From: Micractinium sp. NFX-FRZ
Lineage: Eukaryota > Chlorophyta > Trebouxiophyceae > Chlorellales > Chlorellaceae
Reading direction: 5' to 3'
Assembly (NCBI GenBank): GCA_029339195.1
Contig: JAPTJF010000083.1
Span: 103,012-167,011 of the forward strand
DNA length: 64,000 bases
Shown here in pieces: positions 1,503 through 51,331 of the stretch. The notes under the pieces are model-generated. The model ran no database searches. It was not told the origin of the DNA and saw only the letters and a program-made list of their open reading frames with translations. Position numbers and translations under genes: made by a program. How positions within the stretch are numbered: position 1 is the first letter of the stretch; each line of letters begins with the position of its first letter.

Positions 1503-4240
1503 CTAAAACTGTATGGGCAGCTCCTGCCCCCACCATATGTCGGTCAGCTGCATCGTCCTCACGTTGCCCCGGTCGCTGGTGATGGCCAGCGTGTGACCCA
1601 GCCCCTTGTTGAACAGGCCCTCGTGCACCCAGAAGCCCCACCTGCAATGCAAGGAATGGGAGGCAAAGGGGCGAACAGAGCCGACATGTCAAGACCAGCT
1701 GCAGCACACACGTGTTCACGCTGCCCAGAGTGATGCCACCGCCACACGCTGCGCCGCCTGCTGTGCCCCGCTGCAACCCGCCCCACACTGCCCACCCTGC
1801 ACAACGCACTGACCACAGCGGGCGCATCGGCTGCCAGAGCCCTTCTGCATGGCGCCGGATGGCATTACTAGGCCATCAGTCTACACTGTTCCAGTCCCGC
1901 CCATCACCTGTCCAGCTTTCAAGCTGCCTTGCTGTTGATGAAAACATGATCATAGGTTCTACTGAGCTTGCTGAGGCGGGGTTGCACAATAACCCAACAC
2001 CAGCTTGCTCACCCCCGGCCCCGCCACCCTCACGCCTCCAGCTTCAGCGCCTCCCTGTTGATGGAACCATTGAGGCAGGTCCGGCCCACCTTTTGCAGGG
2101 GAGCATGCACCAAGACCTGACGCTGTCCCCCACCCTTCCACCCTCCCTCTCCCCACACACGCGCCCCCTCACGTGTCCAGCTTGAGCGCCTTGCCGTTGA
2201 TGGACACCTTGGCGATGGGCTCTGCGCTGTTGTACAGGAAGATGGCCTGCCAGTACTTGTTGCCGTCCTTCACCTTGGGCTCCAGCTGCACTCAAGAGGA
2301 GGGGGGCCAGCTCGGCTTTCGTGTTGAGGGTGAGGAAGGGGGGGATGGGAGAGGGCCATTGTCTCGTTGCGTTCCGTCCCCTTGGGGCTGTTTAAAGGGA
2401 TTTAGAGGCCGGTTTAGAGGGGCTGTTTGAAGGGGATGCCCCCCTGGAACAGCAGCTTGCGTGCGGTGAGGGGCCGCCCCAGCACTGCCTTGTTTATACA
2501 TCGCTCTGCCCCTTATCTGGCAACCGCCCCCCCCACCCTCCCCGCCGCCAGCGGCCCCCACCTTGATGCCCCCCTGGAACAGGGGTTTGCAGGAGGTGAA
2601 TGACCACTCGATGGCCACCCGGTCGGGCGGCAGCCCCGTCATCTCCAAAAAGGCGGGGTCGGAAAAGTCGATGTCCCCACGCTTGCAGGTGGGGCACCTG
2701 GGGGGGGGATTGAGGGTTGTGTGTGTGTGTGTGCGGGGGGGGGGGGGACCCAGGGGAAGGGCTGATAAATCACTGGTCCATGCAGTGCGCCCCCTCGCCT
2801 CCCCCAGCCCCCCTGGCCCCCTCTGGAAACCAGGACTACATGTTTGCATGCACCGTGGCAGCACTCACTGGTCGATGAAGTGCACCGCCACCCACTTCCC
2901 CCGGACTTTGCAGCGCGGGTCCACGCAGCGCGCCATGGCGCACTTGCCGCACTGCAGGCCGCCCTCCCACTGCAGCGGGGGAGGCCGAAAGGCCGTGGCA
3001 CATTGGAGGGTGGGTTGGGAAGCACTGGAGTTGGGCTAACTCACTGCGCCTGCCGGTTGCCACGCCATGAGTGGCAGCATAGCCTAGATGGCAGCATAAG
3101 CCCCACTAGATGCCCAGCCTCCCAGCCAACAATCAACCCCCGCCCCCCGACTCTTCCCGCCCACACAACCCGCCCGCCCACCCACCATTTGGATGTTGAT
3201 GGCGGCAAAGTAGACCTTCTGCCAGGGGGACAGCCCCTGCCATGGGTAGGCGCACGAAAAGATGAGGCTGGAGGCCGGCTTGGCATAGCTGGTGCCCTGT
3301 GCCCTGAACAACGTGCCAATCGGCGTGAGGCCGCCGCTGGCGCCGGGAGGCGGACTGGCGCGCACGACGGGCGGCGGCGGGCTGAGCCACACGGTCGGCG
3401 GCGGCGGGCTGGGGCTGGGCCAAACGGTGGGCGGGGCCGGGCTGAGCACGGGGGGAGGCGGGGGGCTGCGCATGGGTAGCGGCGGGGGGCTGAGCTTGGG
3501 CGGTGGGGGGCTGGGGCTCAGCTTGGGCGGGTGCGGCGGCGGTGGTGGGCTCAGGCTGGTTTTGGGAGGCGGCGGTGGCGGCGGCGGCCTCCGCACGAGC
3601 GGTGGGGAGCGCTTTGGGGGCGGGGGGCTGGGGCGCAGGGACGGCGGTGGCGGGCTGGGCGAGGTCTGCGCTCCAGCTGGGTTGCTGCACACCCACGTCC
3701 CGCCCATGGGCCGGGTCCGCCTGTATCCCACGTGACTGCAGGCACCAGGACATGAAGGGTGAATGGGTGGAGGGATGCTTTGTTTCAAGGTTGCCACAAG
3801 CCAGGTTGAGATGGCAATGAATGACATGCAGGGCACCACCATGCACCACCAGAGTGGCCTGGCGGTTGAATGTGTGCCCAAGCCGCTGGGCTGAATAGAG
3901 AGGGCAGCCAGCGGGGCTCACCACAGCATGCACCCAGATCTCTCGGTGCAGACTTTGCAGTTTGGCACCAGAGACTCGCAATCGCTTGTTAGGCCGGCCT
4001 CAACCTGTCCTGCAACTAGAGATGGTGGGGAGCGGCGGCACGGGCGGCGGCGGTGAGCCGAGGACGAGGGCTGCTGCGGCGGCTCTGCCCGTGATCGCAA
4101 GTCTGTAGAGGCGATCGCGAAGCCGGATGGCGGATTGGAGACCGCAGCAACTGCGGGCATGCACATCTGGGCCGCGCACCGAAAGTTGACGCCCAGAGCG
4201 CCAGGGCCACAGCCCACAGCGCTGCGTTCCACGCCCTCAT
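1503..4240 (-). CDS. Expansin-like secreted wall protein with Cys-rich and proline-rich N-terminal regions
   Basis: Exons (minus): 4240-4180, 4102-3922, 3735-3186, 2969-2869, 2697-2562, 2285-2173, 1641-1503; 426 aa, all phases closing. Residues 1-20 are a signal peptide (MRAWNAALWAVALALWAS). A Cys-rich module follows (CKVCTERSGCMLC, then HVGY across a splice), then a SPPPP-rich linker at about 110-225. A double-psi beta-barrel with CGKCAMARC, CPTC and GDIDFS follows, the last holding the Asp conserved in expansins. The end resembles the second expansin domain (KYWQAIFLYN, WWGQELPIQF). Expansins loosen walls without hydrolysis. The Pro-rich linker recalls algal hydroxyproline-rich glycoproteins. 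The 77-nt first intron is the least certain part. Decayed exon copies lie in the introns. Confidence 0.8.
1908..2080 (-). repeat. Two decayed copies of the exon edge at 2173 (echoes)
   Basis: The sequence around the donor of exon 2285-2173 (plus strand GTCCAGCTTGAGCGCC, then GTTGATGGA) recurs at about 2036-2080 and, more degraded, at 1908-1968. Both lie inside the following intron. Neither keeps an open, in-frame exon. Confidence 0.7.
2435..2471 (-). repeat. Echo of the exon edge at 2562
   Basis: GATGCCCCCCTGGAACAG occurs at 2435 and again at 2565, where it encodes the end of the GDIDFS exon next to its donor. The copy lies about 130 bases into the downstream intron. Confidence 0.75.
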
Positions 4241-41973: not shown

Positions 41974-44900
41974 ATGACGAAGGCGAAGGCGCAGAAAAAC
42001 TACCTGGCGGAGGTGGCACCGCCGCAGGCCGCGACGGACGGCAAGAAGGCATGCGGGCCGGAGTACAGGTGAGGGGATTGCTGGCAGCAGGAGGAGTGCA
42101 AGGCGCTTGCGATCGATGGCCAGTGGCAGCGGCAGGGGAGGTCTGGCGCACTGGCCAGCCTCTCAGCCTCCCCAGGCCTCTCGCCCCCCAGGCTCCGCAG
42201 CGATCACCGCCACAAGCTGAATGCGTGCCGCAGCAAGCAGCCGGGCAGGCCCCGCTGCTCCCGCCGCTGGTCCCGCCACTACCCCCGCCTCTGCTCCGCA
42301 CGCTCGGCCGCTCCAACGCTCTGCGCCACGCCCGCTGCCGCAGGGCCGCCATCGCCAAGGATGGCCCGCCCGCCATCCCCTATGGCTCGCTCTACGAGAT
42401 GTTCCAGGCCTCTGTTGAGAAGTACCCAAACAACAACTGCCTGGGGCACCGCGAGGGCGCGGGGTACGCGTGGCGCACCTACAAGCAGACGTCTGAGGAG
42501 ACGGCAGCCATCGGCTCGGCGCTGGTCAAGAGCGGGCTTCAGCCGCACGGGCGCGTGGGCATCTACGGCGCCAACAGCCCAGAGTGGATGATTGGCATGC
42601 AGGCAAGTGGGTGCTGCCCGGCCGCCTGGAATCCAGGAATTTGCCGGCCTTGGTCCGATCCCACGGTGCTCTGCTCCTGTGCTGGCCAGCCGCTCGGCAT
42701 CCCAAGCAGGCTGTTGCCACACAGGGCACTCAGCTTGCCATGGTGCAAGAGTATCCTGGGGGTTGCTGCATTGCCTTGAAAAGGTTGCGTGTGGCAGTTG
42801 GACGTGCTGCGACGGGCCGCGGATTGTCGACGCACCCATGCCCTGCACCTCCCCACTGGCCTCGCCCCCCGCGAGCCCGCATTCGCCAGATACTTGTACT
42901 GCCTCCCCCCAAGCACGCAAAGCAGCACATTCTTACACCCCCCCCCGCCCTCACACCTGCGCCCCTTGCTGCCTGCAGGCCTGCAACCGCCAGAACCTGT
43001 ATTGCGTGCCGCTGTACGACTCCCTGGGCGAGCACGCCATCGAGTACATTGTCAAGCACTCCGAGTCGACCTGCGTCTTCACCCAGAGCGAGAAGTTTGG
43101 CACCCTGGTGCAGGCGCTGCCCAATGTGCGTATGCTTGAGTGTGTTGTTCGCTGCGGGTGGCGTGATTGGTGGAGGTCAGAGCCAAAGAGTTTGGCACGC
43201 TGGAGCAGGCGCTGCCCAACGTGCGTGATGGTTTGGAGTGCATTGGCCGGTCCCAGCCTGGGGGCACTGTAGTGGGTAAGGCAAAGCGAGAAGATGTTTG
43301 GCGCGAGCCACAAATGGGTGCCTTGTGAGGCGTTGGGATTACCACCCAGCCCAGGGCCGCTCTGGCAGCTGCATGCTGGTATGTGGACGCAGCAGCTGCT
43401 CACATCTGCGCCGCCTCAGCCCCCGTGGCCGCCCTGTTCCGCTGTCACACGTCCATGGTCCGGTGACTGTGGTGTGCCGGCAATGGAGACAGGGACTCTC
43501 GTAGCATTCTTTCCCTTACCAGTTCTCCACCCTTCACCAATGCAGGTGGACGGCCTGGTGAAGACTGTGGTGTACTGGGGCAAGGGCGATGCCGCCGCGA
43601 CCGAGGTGGGTTGGTGGGTGGGTGGGAGCAAGGGAGGGGGCGGTATGGAGCTGCTGAGGCACTCCATTCACAGTCCGTGCTGGTGTGTCGCCGGCAAGCC
43701 TGAGCACCTTTCGTCGCTGAGGTCTGTGCTGCCACCCTGGCTGGCCCTCTTTTCACCACCCTGTGTTGCATGCCGCCCAGGCTGCGCAGGCGGCACAGGC
43801 TGCTCCTCCCAGGTCTCCTTTCACTCATATTTCTGCACAACCATGGATGCCTTTCCTCACAACCACACTGTGCAGGCTGCCAAGGCCGCGGGCTGCACCG
43901 TCTACTCTTACGAGGAGTTCCTGCAGCTGGGGCGCGACAACCCCGCACCTGCATGTGAGCCAGCTGCAGCAAGGCAGCTGCCGCCGCGCAGTGCCTGCAG
44001 TGCGCTGCCCGCGTGCCGTCGAGGCCGGCCGCTCGCCGGGCAGGCGATGACCAGCAGCTGCCCCTGTGCCGGAGCCAGCCAGGGGGGCCAAGGGGGGCCA
44101 AGAGAGTTGCGGCTGCTAAGCCACGTGCCTGCGTGCACACTCAGCCTCGCTGAGCTCCCTGCTCCCGGGTCTCTCCCCTCAACCCTTTCTGCCCGCCTGG
44201 CACCCCACCCCTGCCCTTCCTTGCCCTGCAGCTCCCCCCAAGCCTGAGGACCTCTGCACCATCATGTGTGAGTGGGAGATGCATGCATGCATGCATGTGA
44301 AGGTTGTGCCTAGCATTGCCTCCTTGGATTGTACCGCTTTGGGGGCACCTTGCTGTGGGTGGATGCGGCTTTTGAAAACCGTGCGTTTCGGGTGTTAGTC
44401 TCCACCATGTGTGCCAGCCTTCCCGCTCTGCATGGGCAGCCTAAACCAAAGCTGCAGAGCAAATACCTGCAGGCCTGCAGAGCTGCGCCTCTGCAGCACT
44501 GGTGTCGGCACTGCGTGCCTGCTCTAACATGCCCCTGCTTGCCCCCCTGTCGCTCGCCTGCAGACACCAGCGGCACCACTGGCGACCCCAAGGTGAGATG
44601 GCAGCCCTCGCCAGCATCTGAAGCACCATGCAGCTTTCCAGCTTTCCGAGCAGCACAGCAATCGGCAGACAGCCTCTGGGGCAGGCAGGCAGACCTGCAA
44701 CTCAAGGCAGAACGGAGCAGCTTGGCTGCCACCTGCCAGCAGGCAGCTCGTCGGCAGCCCTCCGCCACCCGTGCTGTTCCCCCCCCCACGCCCCCCTGTG
44801 CACGCGCACATACCCTGCCTGCCTGCCCATGGCTCATGGCCCAGCGCTGCTGCCCGTCGGCGCGCGTGCATTGCCAGCCATGCCCGCCCACCCGCCCGGC

Positions 44901-47900
44901 CGGCCTCAGCTGCCGCTGCCCGCCCACTGCGCCCCGCGCTGCCGCCGGCGCCCGCGCCCGCGCCCGCCCACTCTGCCTGCCCACTGTGCCCGCCCACGTG
45001 CCCGCCCTGCAGGGCGTCATGCTGAGCCATGAGAATGTCATGGCCGCCATCATCACCCTGCAAACCTTTACGGCCGCTTACATGGGGGAGGGGGAGGACT
45101 CCATGGGGGAAGACGATGCCTTCCTCTCCTTCCTGCCCATGGCCCACATCTTTGACAGGCGGGTAGTGGCGGGGCACCCACACCCCTGCCTGTCGCTGCC
45201 CACTGCCGCGCCGCCCACCCCCGCGCTGCCCCGCGTGCTGCCCCGCCCTGCCCTGCTGTTGCGGCGCCGCCTGTCCGCAGGGGGTGCAACTCACGCATGG
45301 CATGGTGCTGGCAACCATTGCCTCCAAGCTTGATTTCCTCGACTCGGTGGCACCGGGATCAAAGGGGCTGGGCCCACAGGACTGCTTCGTCTCGTTCCTC
45401 CCCCTCGCCCACATCTACGACCGGTACTTTCACAACCGCTGCCTGCCATTTACTTGCCCAGCGCTGCACACATATACACCTCTTCCCGTCGTGCTTCTAG
45501 CCCATGCCCGCGTCGGCTTGCATCATCTGCACTGGGCCTGCCGGCCCACCCACTGCCTCCCCCACCCCGCCACGCCACACCCAGTGGCGGCCGCCCCTGC
45601 CCCGCCACGCTCCTGCCCCTCCCCGGGAAACGTGACCGTTTCGTCGCCATAAACGCGCCACGCACACAGCCGGCAGCGGTGCAGCCTTCCAGCTGCCAGC
45701 TCCCGTGCCCCTCAAGCTTGCTCCCCATGCATGGCTCGGGAGCTGGCAGCTGAAAGGCGCCCCCAAATCTTTGTGCTGCTCAATCCCTCTCTCCCCCAAA
45801 CCAGGGTGTGGAGATCTCGCACAAGGCGGTGGTGTCCACCGCCCTCTCCCTGGTGCATTTCCTGGACGCCCACAAAGTGCACCTGGACCAGAGCGACAGC
45901 CTGCTCTCCTTCCTCCCGTTGGCACACATTTTCGACAGGCGGGCGCCCCCCTGCCCTGCTTTGATTTTGTTTTCACATGCTCTGTGCCCCTCTTCTGCTG
46001 CACCCCAGACGGGAGGAGGCCCTCTTTTCTGCTGGTCCGCCCCCGCTCCGCCACGCCCCACGCCACAGCCCACAAATGCGCCTGCCACTCACCGCACTGC
46101 GCACCCAAAGCGCCGGCCCTGACAGCACACACCTGGCAACGCCCCCACACCTGCATTTCTTCTTCTTTCGGTCACGCCAGCTCGCAAGCAGGCCTCCGGC
46201 CCACCGTACGTCGCTGCCCCGCCCACGTACCGTCCGCCCACCCCTGCTGCCTTTACTGCCCTTGCTGCCCCTGCTCTCTTTAACCTCCCTACCTCTTTCC
46301 CTGACTTTGCGTCGCCCCCTGGCCCCCCTGCCTGGCACCTGTACCGCCCGCCTGTACTGCAGGGCTGCCGAGGAGCTGTTCCTGCACCTGGGCGCCTCCA
46401 TTGGCTACTGGCGGGGCGACATCAAGGGGCTCATGGACGACATTGGTGGGTGGGGTCATGGGCGGGACGTCGGGAATTGGGTGGGCAAGTTGAGATGCAC
46501 TGGGATGGTTGGGCCTGCGCTGACAGTCTGGGTTCGGTGCCGACAGGAAGCCGACCGAAACAGGGTTTTTACTGCAGTTGACAGCGCGTGGAGGCGACAT
46601 CAGAGTCGCCTGGTTGAGGGCAGTCATGGGTGGCAGATGTGGCGCAGGCGCACCCCTTTCGTGCCCCCACACCGCTGCATGTCCGCCCGCTGCCGTGCAA
46701 CTCCTGCAGGCGCGCTGCGCCCCACCATGTTCTGCGGCGTGCCCCGCGTCTTCGACCGCATCTACTCCGGCGTCATGCTTAAGGTGGGCTGCCCGCTAGT
46801 ACTGCCTTGTACTGCCTGATTGATGGGTCGTCCCGCCTGGGGCTGAGGCTCTGGGGTGGTGTTTTGTGGTCAAGGCCTGGCAGGCACAGGAAGCGTGCAC
46901 GCGTGCCAGCCGTGTTGAGTGTGCAGTGAGCACCGAGGGCAGCGCTCGTGAATCGCGGCTCTGTGCAACCGCGGCTGCACCCTGGTCTTCTGCATGTGTC
47001 CACATCAACGTTTGGGGCTGTTCAAATGGGGGGCTGCCTGCGTTACTGACCTTCTGCACATGCCCCAATGTGTGCACCCTGCGCAGGTCAGCGAGGGCAG
47101 CTTCATCAAGAAGTCCCTCTTCAACTGGGGCTACCAGCGCAAGCTGCACTTCCTGGGCAAGGGCTACGCATACGACAAGGTGCGCGGCGCCGCCTGCTGT
47201 GGGCGGTATTGCTTAGGCTGGTGGCAATGCAGAGTGCGACTGGGCACATCGCACGCCCGGCCTCATGCCAGTCTCCCACCTCCCCCAGCTGCTCCTTCTG
47301 AACCCTCTCCCTGCTCGGTGTGCTCCAACTTGCGCCGCTCACTCCAAGACAAGCTGGTCCCTCTTTTTAAGGCGGGTCATCCCTCTACTCTCACTCACAC
47401 ACACACCCTATTTTCTCGCCCTCTCTGTGCGCAGGCCGCCCCCTTCTTTGACAAGCTGGTGTTCTCCAAGATCAAGGAGAAGCTGGGCGGGCGCGTGAAG
47501 CTGGTGGTGTCGGGTGAGCACATCGGGCGGGCATAGTGGGGGTTGGGGGCGTAAACGGGGGCCGACTGGGGGGCAGGACCACAGCCGGGGCCGGCCAGGA
47601 CGGGTGCGTCCCGTGCGGTTGGTGGCTCGGGGGTTGTGTGGGTCTGTAGGGTGCCATCGCGGCCTCCGTATGCAGCTGCCTTGCTGCCGCCTCCTTGATC
47701 CCCTCCCACACGTGGGGGTGCCCCTTCCTCTCCCTCCCGCCCCGCCCTGCTGGGGCGTCACTTGGGAGGTCTCCACGCTGTGGCCCTAAATATGCTGTCC
47801 TGTGCCTCCCCATCTCCCTGCTGCCAGGTGGCGCCCCGCTGGCACGCCACGTGGAGGACTTCCTGAAGGTCACCATGTGCTGCCGCGTGGTGCAGGTGAG

Positions 47901-50900
47901 CTGGCGGCCGGCCGAGGGCACTGCAAGCCGGGGTGGACGCAGATCTGCGCTGCCGTGTGATGAGCTGGCCAGGCTATGCTCCGACCTGGCCCGCTGACCC
48001 GGCGTTGCTGTCCTGGCTGTTCCTGCAGGGCTACGGCCTCACCGAGACCTGCGCTGCCTCCTTCATCGCGGTGCCCGATGAGTCGGTGCGTGGCCTGGCC
48101 TCATACTTTTTGTTGTGCTTGCCTTGATAGTGCGGTGTCGTTTGCTTCCCTGGCCGCTTGCTGATGAGTCGCACCGTCTTGGTTGCGGTTGGGCTTTGGT
48201 CAGACACCGCGCGGCGTTCCGCGCTTGCGTGTCTGGCTGGTTCACTCCGCCTAGTCTGCTGCTGGCAGAGGTGCCAGGCGAATGGAAACAGTTTCAAAGT
48301 AAAACTGGCCTGTCAGCGGATGCAGCAAGCTCAGCCTGGGATATGTTATGTGCGCCGCCAACACACTCAGCTGCGCGCCTTCCCGCCTTGCGCCTACCTC
48401 CCCCTGCAGGAGCACGCCGGCACTGTGGGCCCGCCCCAGCCGGTGCTGTCCTTCAAGCTGGAGGCAGTGCCCGAGATGAACTACGACCCCATGGCCAACC
48501 CGCCCCGGTGAGCAGGACGCTGACGTGGCAGTCAGGGGCATGTGGGTTCCGGGTTGGAGCGGTGCCTGCAATGAATGCCAACCCCATAGCCGAATCCCCC
48601 CGGTGAGCGGGATGCTGACGTGGCAGTCAGGGGCATGTGGGTGCTGATGTGAAGCGGTGCTTGAGATGAATTACGCCCCCACAGCCGACCCGCTGCTGCG
48701 GCTGGGATGCTGACGTGGCGGCGGAGGAAGCACGGCTGATGTGTCTCCCGCTGCCGCACGTGCTCCGTGCGCTGACCCCTGCTGCACGCCCCGTGTGCTT
48801 CCTGTTCCCCTGCAGGGGCGAGGTGGTGGTGAAGGGGCCCTCTGTGTTCTCCGGCTACTACAAGGCAGAGGTGGGTGGGATGGGGCGACAGAGAGGTGTT
48901 AGGCAGGCTGATGGAGGTGGGCTCAACATGATGTTCGCTGGCGTGGACGGCGGCTGCCCCCAAGCCCCCCTGCCACTTCCACACACGGCCTACCTCAACC
49001 GGGCCCCCTTGATCTGTGTCCACCAACCGCTGCAGGACAAGACTGAGGAGGTGCTGGAGAAGGACGGGTGGTTCCACCCGCCTCTTACCTCGTTCACACC
49101 TCAAACGGTCACTCATATCCCCCTCCCCCCGCCCCCTCCGCCCACAACCGCTGCAGGACAAGACTGAGGAGGTGCTGGAGAAGGATGGGTGGTTCCACAC
49201 CGGCGACATTGGGGAGATCACGCCCACCGGCGCCCTGCGCATCATCGACCGCATGAAGAACATCTTCAAGCTCAGCCAGGGTGAGCCCCCTGCTTCACAC
49301 GTGCATGCTTTTGTTGTCGAGCAGTAGGACGGGTGCATCACCAACCACCACTGCTTGCAGCTCAGCTCAGCCAGGGTGGGTGGCTGTGGGTTGGGCACGA
49401 TGCCACGAGTGGTTTGTGTGTCTGTGCGCCGCGCCGCCTGCTGCACGGCACGCCCTGCAGCCTGCCTGCCCAACCATGCTGTCCCTTCTGCAGCACGCCT
49501 GCCCCCCTCTCTCTTCTTGTTCAAAAGCCAAGGTACAATGGTGTGCGTTTCTTTGATTGGTGTGCCCCTTCACCTCCCCCCCCCCCGCCCGCCCCCCCTG
49601 CAGGCGAGTACATTGCTGTTGAGAAGGTGGAGGGCATCTACAAGATGAACTCGGCGGTGGAGCAGGTGGGGTGCGGGTGGTGGTGGGTGAACAGGGGTGC
49701 ATGGAAGCAGGCAGGGAAAATGGGGGGGGGGGGGGTGGGAGGGGCGAGGCGTGAGGAGGAGAGCACCGGCCCAGGGGGCTGGGTCGCAGCGGCGGGGGGT
49801 GTTGTGGTGAGTCAGAGCCACACACCGGACAGTGCTCTGTATCATGTGCCTTCCCCTTGTCTTCGCCTCGCTGGCAGTCACGCTGGCCTGGCACTGAGCA
49901 CTTCTTGCTCTTCCCTTCTCCCTCCTTCTCCCCGCTGCCCCCAGATCTGGGTGTACGGCAACTCGTATGAGAGCCAGCTGGTGGCGGTGGTGGTGCCCAC
50001 GCACGCCAAGCTGCAGGTGGGCTAGGGCGGGCGGGGGCGGGGGGGGGGGGAGGATGGTCAGGGAGTAGGCAGCCGTGCAGCCTGCTAGGAGGGGCGTGGG
50101 ACCAGCTTGTACACGCGACGCGCGACGCGTTGCAACCGGGGCCACGGGGCAGCCTGCCAACAGCGCGCGGCTGCGGTGTGCGCCGCGGGTGGGAGGCTGG
50201 GTCTCACTCCTCGTGCTTGCCAACCTCGCTGCCGCCGCTCCTTTTGCCTGCAGGCTCTCGCGGCCCATGTTGGCGTGAAGGGCAGCGATGAGGAGCTGTG
50301 CCGCGACGAGAAGGTGGGCGTGTCGGTGGGGGCAGGATGTGGCGCGGGTGGCTGCCTCGTGTGTTGGGGCGTAGAGCCGCACCGCACCGGGATGGCGGCT
50401 GCCCGTGCGCCGCGAGGGTCGCGTGTTTGCATGGGTTGGTGTGGTCAGCGACGAGGAGCTGTGCTGCTGTGAGACAGGTCGCCATGGAGACGACACATGC
50501 GTGTCTTGTGCCCTTGCACGTGTACGTACACCTTGAGAGCAACAACATGACCCAGCACGACACAACGCATCTCCCCCTGTGTGTGTGCAGGTGAAGAAGG
50601 AGCTGCTGGCGCAGCTGACCACCACCGCCAAGGAGGGCAAGCTCAAGGTGTGTTGGTGTTGGGGGGGAGGGCGGGGCGGACCCGCGGGGGCTGCAGCACC
50701 AAATGAGCACCCCCTCAGCAGCAGTGCGACGCCCGCCTCTAGGGGGCTGCTGCGCGGCACAGCCCCGTCGCCCCCGACGCCGTGATGCGGCTCGCCGGCC
50801 CGTTGATCCACTCCATGCACCACGACAGCTTATGGTCTTGCCTTTGAGCGTGTGCCGGTGGGCGCATGCTCGTCCCTCCTCCTTCGCCCGCCCGCCATGC

Positions 50901-51331
50901 TTGCGGACAGCTCCCCCCGCCGTGCGCACTCCCCTGCTGCAGGGCGTTGAGATGGTGCACACGCTCTACCTGCAGCCCCCCACCTAACCAGTGCACCTGC
51001 TCCTCATCCCTGTTCCTGTGTTCCCTGGCCATATCGCCCACCTTCCCCTGCTGCAGGGCATTGAAATGGTGCACACGTTTTATCTGCAGCCCCCCAGCCA
51101 CCTGGGGAGAACGACCTGCTTAACCGCTTGCCTGGCTGCTGTGTGCCCCTTCCCCTGCTGCAGGGCTTTGAGATGGTGCGCGCCCTGTACCTGGAATCGC
51201 CCAACCACCTGTTCAGCGTGGAGAACGACCTGCTGACGCCCACCTTCAAGCTGAAGCGGGCGCCGCTGCAGAAGCGGTACCAGGGCGAGATCGACGCCAT
51301 GTACGCCGCGCTCAAGGCGGCGGCCAAGTGA
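41974..51331 (+). CDS. Long-chain acyl-CoA synthetase (plant LACS type) with a triplicated exon
   Basis: Constitutive exons: 41974-42068, 42344-42602, 42979-43125, 43546-43605, 43876-43954, 44232-44267, 44564-44592, [one of 45013-45158, 45281-45423, 45805-45938], 46363-46445, 46710-46783, 47087-47179, 47435-47513, 47828-47895, 48029-48085, 48410-48507, 48816-48870, 49157-49280, 49604-49665, 49945-50016, 50254-50313, 50591-50647, 51164-51331. With the third alternative the product is 662 aa. It activates fatty acids to acyl-CoA with ATP. Motifs: [10 protein letters not shown] (P-loop, about 226-235), [52 protein letters not shown] and [10 protein letters not shown]. Intron 42603 uses a GC donor. 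No clear peroxisomal signal ends the protein (AAAK). The chloroplast or ER location is open. Confidence 0.93.
43186..43231 (+). repeat. Echo of LACS exon-3 end with donor
   Basis: GAGTTTGGCACGCTGGAGCA and GCGCTGCCCAACGTGCGTG repeat the exon end (AAGTTTGGCACCCTGGTGCA, GCGCTGCCCAATGTGCGTA) about 100 bases later. The GTGCGT donor is kept. Confidence 0.9.
44564..44592 (+). other. 29-nt microexon encoding the LACS P-loop
   Basis: This exon encodes TSGTTGDPK, with its first Tyr split across the splice. It carries most of the nucleotide-binding loop of the enzyme and ends in phase 0, directly before the three alternative exons. Confidence 0.85.
45013..45158 (+). other. LACS alternative exon A
   Basis: 146 nt, opened by CCTGCAG and closed by a GC donor (GACAG then GCGGGT). 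It reads [16 protein letters not shown] and ends [12 protein letters not shown] plus AG. It starts in phase 0 and ends in phase 2, as B and C do. It carries an insertion of four residues ([10 protein letters not shown] region) relative to C. Confidence 0.8.
45281..45423 (+). other. LACS alternative exon B
   Basis: 143 nt, opened by GTCCGCAG and closed by a GT donor (GACCG then GTACTT). It reads [20 protein letters not shown] and ends [13 protein letters not shown] plus CG. Joining to exon 46363 gives Arg, as with A and C. It is three residues longer than C and the only one of the three with a GT donor. Confidence 0.8.
45805..45938 (+). other. LACS alternative exon C
   Basis: 134 nt, opened by AACCAG and closed by a GC donor (GACAG then GCGGGC). 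It reads [20 protein letters not shown] and ends [12 protein letters not shown] plus AG. Its length (44 codons plus 2 nt) fits the usual plant LACS spacing, so it may be the ancestral form. Confidence 0.8.
48460..48720 (+). repeat. Tandem array made from the end of LACS exon 15
   Basis: The end of exon 48410-48507 with its donor and following intron recurs twice, with a period of about 95 bases. GAGATGAACTACGACCCCAT, GCAATGAATGCCAACCCCAT and GAGATGAATTACGCCCCCAC mark the three units. GCTGACGTGGCAGTCAGGGG links them. The second unit keeps a CCCCGGTGAGCGG donor. Confidence 0.95.
49022..49080 (+). repeat. Near-identical echo of the [16 protein letters not shown] exon start
   Basis: ACCGCTGCAGGACAAGACTG and about 45 following bases match the real acceptor and start of exon 49157-49280 with one substitution, 121 bases upstream. 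Identity then stops abruptly. This is the youngest echo in the window and its acceptor is intact. Confidence 0.95.
50932..51125 (+). repeat. Two upstream copies of the LACS terminal-exon start
   Basis: CTGCTGCAGGGCGTTGAGAT (exon-like from 50943) and CTGCTGCAGGGCATTGAAAT (from 51057) precede the real CTGCTGCAGGGCTTTGAGAT (51164). They read [14 protein letters not shown] then stop, and [16 protein letters not shown] then a shifted tail. Both keep good acceptors in the right phase, so they could act as alternative last exons. Confidence 0.9.

Follow-up and report, generated by a model that had tools for sequence, protein, structure and literature searches.

A tandem trio of gate exons in a long-chain acyl-CoA synthetase gene of a Micractinium alga: a candidate mutually exclusive exon cluster

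Results

A LACS gene with three complete copies of one exon

We observed three tandem, homologous and intact copies of a single exon in a long-chain acyl-CoA synthetase (LACS) gene of Micractinium sp. NFX-FRZ. On balance, we favour the reading that an ancient tandem duplication of the exon encoding the predicted fatty-acid gate gave rise to these copies, here termed A, B and C, and that all three have been kept as a mutually exclusive cluster. A candidate cluster of this kind had been proposed in an earlier note; the proposal is well supported by the anatomy of the locus and by the retention of more than one copy in relatives, whereas for the use of more than one copy in the Micractinium alga, the regulation of the choice and its effect on the enzyme we infer rather than observe.

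The window, that is, the whole stretch of 64,000 nucleotides analysed here, belongs to a genome of 66 Mb in 838 contigs. Its gene at 41974-51331 is predicted to encode a plant-type (LACS4-like) long-chain acyl-CoA synthetase of a Chlorellaceae alga. Among the best 120 of 7963 library matches, the first is from Micractinium tetrahymenae (86% identity), followed at 84% by a contig whose initial portion equals a C. variabilis protein, at 82% by M. conductrix and at 81% by Chlorella vulgaris. The protein of M. conductrix, which bears the name 'long chain acyl-synthetase 4-like', shows its 82% identity across 100% of the 632-aa query. Moreover, the AMP-binding domain PF00501 matches inside the gene, and the P-loop is present. 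The gene models begin within exon 2 and extend to the stop codon; exon 1 and the first part of exon 2 are provisional. The features on which the analysis is based are as follows (the slash marks the exon border).

41974..51331, + strand: modelled LACS gene, with a single gate exon among the 22 exons of each mRNA
44564..44592, + strand: P-loop exon, ATP-binding, 29 nt, P-loop segment of 10 residues, donor AAG/GTGAGA; upstream partner of A, B and C
45013..45158, + strand: gate exon copy A, 146 nt, F-gate, GC donor CAG/GCGGGT
45281..45423, + strand: gate exon copy B, 143 nt, F-gate, weak GT donor CCG/GTACTT
45805..45938, + strand: gate exon copy C, 134 nt, F-gate, GC donor CAG/GCGGGC, weak acceptor
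46363..46445, + strand: constitutive exon, common downstream partner of A, B and C

The coordinates, lengths and phases, the GV..H starts and the AHI[FY]DR ends were all found as previously described, and the homology of the three copies is upheld by protein comparison and by matching borders. Each copy begins in phase 0 and ends in phase 2, and every length equals 2 modulo 3. Similar lengths (here 146, 143 and 134 nt, a difference of up to 20 aa being allowed), shared phases and compatible splice sites (here GC, weak GT and GC donors with AG acceptors) are expected of mutually exclusive exons, and A, B and C agree with all of these. All carry the gate motif D-x4-F-LP[LM]AH; its core, [F/Y]-LP-x-x-H, is found in 119 of 121 library proteins, the 121 places comprising 98 with Y and 23 with F.

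When the copies were compared by tblastn in the 64-kb window, E values between them ranged from 2e-9 to 3e-8, and identities were 21/48, 20/45 and 21/45. Outside the cluster, the next place (query B) reached an E value of 0.018 and covered part of the exon only. A fourth or decayed copy was not found in the window by this search, in which the other matches at E <= 1 were few, short and scattered. The G+C content of A, B and C at the three codon positions (57-67, 31-42 and 79-89%) resembles coding sequence, the constitutive exons giving 59-62, 38-47 and 88-93%.

The intact reading frames had been taken as an argument for selection. This part of the argument was modified: 69-72% of intron stretches of equal length are likewise open in one frame, so that open frames alone are weak evidence and were not taken as proof. 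What stands, and is strong, is the combination of homology, borders, coding-like codons and the copies present in relatives.

The LACS gene contains five further families of short tandem duplications, each of exon parts, with spacings of 95-163 nt, which indicates that duplication is frequent in this gene. Among all its tandem duplicates, A, B and C are the only complete exons.

43094-43226, 48464-48748, 49024-49198, 50280-50474 and 50927-51211: partial tandem duplication families in the LACS gene

The duplicate pair 49024/49145 is near-identical (98%) and looks recent. At 50943-50987, an extra copy of the start of the last exon ends in a stop and may provide an alternative truncated end.

Related algae keep more than one copy

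Relatives were represented by proteins and open reading frames (ORFs) rather than genomes, taken from the best 120 of 7963 matches and from region searches with individual copies. The region search with B matched two proteins, both A-type, and that with C matched 11, among them P0005, P0006 and P0124, which begin with or carry A. Among the matches listed, four of the five named Chlorella and Micractinium models showing the exon have the A form, C. ohadii being the exception, which fits a default exon; the A form is also present in the cDNA-like C. variabilis contig P0005.

The ORF P0124, which comes from an M. conductrix-like contig with a maximum length of 26,878 bases, appears to contain A, then a probable B and finally a clear C. 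Its first 43 residues are identical to the A exon annotated in M. conductrix, and a 28-residue stretch close to its end also agrees with that species. Read in a shifted frame, C is compatible at 39 of 45 residues, as compared with 21 at the next place and a maximum of 26 in 20,000 shuffles. The B place follows about 117 bases past A and agrees with the head of B at 14/20 residues (13 at the C place) and with its tail at 17/22 (15 at the C place). The fit is weak, with an ungapped match over the full length of 26/48 versus 25 near the C place and a shuffle control that covered C only. A stop is not forced, though some codons could be stops.

In the C. variabilis gene model P0010, A is followed by part of a second copy, 22 residues long; it agrees with B at 11/22, with C at 12/22 and with A at 8/22 and is not assignable to a type. 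For Nannochloris, P0009 holds copy 1 and copy 2 with one additional residue between them, whereas P0011 holds copy 1; their contigs are equal in length, and the two proteins are identical apart from copy 2. Copy 1 has an F-gate and copy 2 a Y-gate. P0013 comprises one partial and one full copy. The question whether related algae keep all three copies, raised in the earlier note, is answered in part: A and a clear C, with a probable B, lie in the M. conductrix-like ORF, whereas C. variabilis and Nannochloris have two copies.

B- and C-like forms likewise occur singly. By alignment score, the B copy of the window comes nearest to the C. ohadii exon and Nannochloris copy 2, both with a Y-gate, and its C copy is closest to the cDNA-like contig P0012 (2510 bases), Helicosporidium and Auxenochlorella, all of which are C-like. 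The C. ohadii model P0008 is B-like with a Y-gate, and the 1780-base cDNA-like contig P0014 is C-like with an F-gate, although by a narrow lead (58.5 bits to C versus 52.8 to B). P0008 and P0014 share 213/232 residues upstream of the exon, 27/45 within it and 238/244 downstream when the poorly aligning last residues of P0014 are excluded; with these residues included, identity outside the exon is 455/488. The two sequences probably come from two close species, and the pair suggests that both copies were present in a recent common ancestor rather than that one species uses both. P0005, P0012 and P0014 presumably represent spliced RNA, since their contigs are too short for a gene of about 9 kb. 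Two different single-copy forms from one genome were not found among the library proteins of relatives. Viral contigs yielded three pattern matches and no relative.

The copies appear to predate the species split

A tree was built on 22 exon sequences, none of them human. Forcing A, B and C of the window into one clade made the tree 43.1 log units worse (p-AU 0.0056), and this topology was rejected. Trees in which the A-type or the B-type exons were held together were not rejected (p-AU 0.68 and 0.64, respectively); both were better than the free tree, the free search being not exhaustive. Supports in the exon tree are low, with zero branches at the starred support level. The three copies of the window thus look older than the species split. 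The exon following the P-loop exon would have been duplicated in tandem long ago, prior to the split of several Chlorellaceae lineages, and the three diverged copies would then have been retained.

Splice sites point to A as the probable default exon

Splice sites were scored with tables built from the constitutive sites of the same gene, a procedure that flatters the constitutive scores. Of the 19 constitutive donors, 18 are GT (7.06-11.93) and the nineteenth is GC (1.67). The gate exon donors score 5.46 (A), 5.10 (C) and -1.76 (B), and the acceptors 11.44 (A), 8.71 (B) and 4.52 (C), with a constitutive range of 7.92-16.05. The lowest donor score in the gene is that of B and the lowest acceptor score that of C, so one or both of these copies may be rarely used. 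Hence, A looks like the default exon, and B and C may need help.

A hairpin lies in the intron between B and C.

45684..45758, + strand: hairpin with 26-nt arms between B and C, its end 46 nt upstream of C

The hairpin scores 29, compared with 26 for the best of 30 shuffles. In a search for one docking site able to pair with a selector site near each exon, this local hairpin alone beat the 30 shuffles. It could hide or loop out part of the intron and is a possible regulator of C. A second place of the hairpin was not found in the genome by a search that skips very common words. A long-range pair of 18 nt (44744-44761/46361-46378; score 21) fell below the top score of 2 of the 30 shuffles and was set aside. 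Steric exclusion by an inter-copy intron too short for splicing was also considered; the lengths of the A-B intron (122 nt) and the B-C intron (381 nt) speak against it. A constitutive intron of 133 nt exists in the gene model.

The splice scores also bear on an alternative that we consider unlikely, yet serious: A could be the sole working exon, with B and C being old intact duplicates that are rarely or never spliced in the alga. The acceptor of A is the best of the three, A is the form carried by four of the five named Chlorella and Micractinium models, B and C hold the weakest sites of the gene, and the five partial duplication families show that duplicates arise here often. However, relatives carry B- and C-like forms in full-length proteins or in cDNA-like contigs, and the copies seem to have arisen before the species split. 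Moreover, all three keep a coding-like codon composition, whereas the other duplicates of the gene are fragments.

Only single use keeps the reading frame open with the modelled splice sites

In the mutually exclusive reading, splicing would place one copy between the P-loop exon and exon 46363. LACS models that begin in exon 2, extend to the stop codon and include a single copy (A, B or C) contain 0 stops and give 632, 631 and 628 aa, respectively. In contrast, the model with no copy contains 8 stops, A+B, A+C and B+C contain 11 each, and A+B+C contains 8. The claim that single use alone yields an open enzyme is thus confirmed for the modelled splice sites, as none, pairs and all three break the frame. 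Other combinations of these splice sites would shift the frame and be lost via premature stops. Frame together with mRNA decay is the best supported means by which use of a single copy may be enforced. Exons with a length not divisible by three are included in 377 human clusters (60%), according to extracts of PMC5740500.

The frame rule depends on the GC donors of A and C, which the earlier note does not mention. According to part of PMC3033335, GC-AG introns make up 7.7% of the introns in Chlorella, the third highest share of 61 species. In the cDNA-like C. variabilis contig P0005, DR is followed immediately by AAEEL; the DR-P-V-H read-through seen in P0010 would imply a GC donor in C. variabilis also. 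A further GC donor is present at 42602 (CAG/GCAAGT) within the same LACS gene model. With an alternative GT located 4 bases beyond the GC donor of A, A alone breaks the frame, whereas A+B (681 aa) and A+C (678 aa) are open; when donors were scored with the tables of the gene, this GT did not score above 0.

The frameshifts and stops that follow whenever A+B, A+C, B+C or A+B+C are joined would also be expected if B and C were poison exons, which, spliced in after A, shift the frame and lower the enzyme level by mRNA decay. We regard this as improbable: a poison exon does not need a conserved protein sequence, yet B and C keep the gate motif, and B- and C-like forms lie within long open proteins of relatives. 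Still less probable is an enzyme with a doubled gate segment, made by joining two copies in frame through a shifted donor, as the open A+B and A+C models and Nannochloris P0009 might indicate; the shifted GT lacks a positive score, a doubled beta-alpha-beta unit would be unlikely to fold there, P0009 may be an annotation product, and P0005 joins DR straight to AAEEL.

The exon corresponds to one structural unit ending in the gate

An AlphaFold2 model of P0005 has a mean pLDDT of 90.3; in it, the exon comprises residues 234-278 and forms one structural unit, consisting of a strand (234-238), a helix (239-255), a second strand (265-268) and the gate loop; within the block 271-280, pLDDT falls to 76. 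Foldseek searches with this model returned carboxylic acid reductases first and luciferases next, with Thermus 1ult at rank 34. As modelled, the exon is a beta-alpha-beta unit that ends in the fatty-acid gate (D-x4-F-LP[LM]AH-I-[FY]-D).

PMC1543647 and PMC2868784 describe mutually exclusive exons in the gate region of mammalian ACSL1 and ACSL6. For human ACSL6 with oleate, PMC2868784 reports that the F-gate form has about 10-fold the activity of the Y-gate form, that a form without gate is inactive, and that residues other than 319 also matter. This precedent for the same region strengthens the suggestion, made before, that gate variants may tune activity: by analogy with the F/Y gate exons of human ACSL6, the alternative algal forms would alter gating, rate or substrate preference.

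Discussion

Alternative splicing of gate exons, which the earlier note does not mention, is already known from mammalian ACSL1 and ACSL6, and the candidate three-copy cluster of the alga would be an addition to it. The earlier note knew of no described algal LACS exon cluster, and none appeared among the papers listed in searches of the open-licence literature. The mammalian and algal systems share the enzyme family, the region after the P-loop, the gate motif D-x4-(F/Y)-LPLAH and alternative homologous exons, and the Nannochloris gene, like human ACSL6, holds one F and one Y copy. In contrast, the human gate exons comprise 26 residues in two copies, whereas those of the alga comprise 45-49 residues with other borders in three copies, all of them F-gate in the window. 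Judging from these different exon borders, the algal cluster probably arose independently of the mammalian one. It is conceivable, and we put it forward tentatively, that a green algal lineage evolved, independently of mammals, a three-way spliced gate switch that has been kept in Chlorella, Micractinium and Nannochloris and retunes lipid metabolism according to conditions.

As far as extracts of PMC3228551, PMC5740500 and PMC9741552 go, mutually exclusive tandem duplicated exons generally resemble A, B and C in similar length, phases and borders, in homology and in breaking the frame if combined; these cases are mainly from animal genes, whereas the algal cluster is known from genomic sequence. 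Closer in lineage is cyn23 of the green alga Volvox carteri, for which part of PMC4378016 describes two alternative exons, both of 106 nt. Unlike the LACS cluster, known from sequence, this cyclophilin-related gene has two copies and was tested by RT-PCR.

If the copies were used in turn, gate swapping by splicing would have arisen twice in very distant lineages, and the gate segment would stand out as a point at which the enzyme is naturally tuned. The relatives of Chlorella are oil-producing algae, and isoforms used in turn would be direct levers on lipid make-up. In addition, a single scaffold with three natural gate variants would make it possible to test how LACS select their substrates.

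The cluster also carries a warning, as it is represented by one copy or garbled in several of the gene models that the library has for these algae. P0055 (Micractinium sp. CCAP 211/92), P0010 and P0013 are broken, read through or doubled at this position, and annotation at the exon cluster is therefore unreliable. A motif search covering 7.5-8 kb around each of five other acyl-CoA-synthetase-like places of the genome (L021-L025) gave at most one gate match per place and zero in L022 and L025. In L021, a paralogous LACS gene has one gate segment after Q (3344-3478), with the same left border by sequence (Q/GVILTH...AHIYGR).
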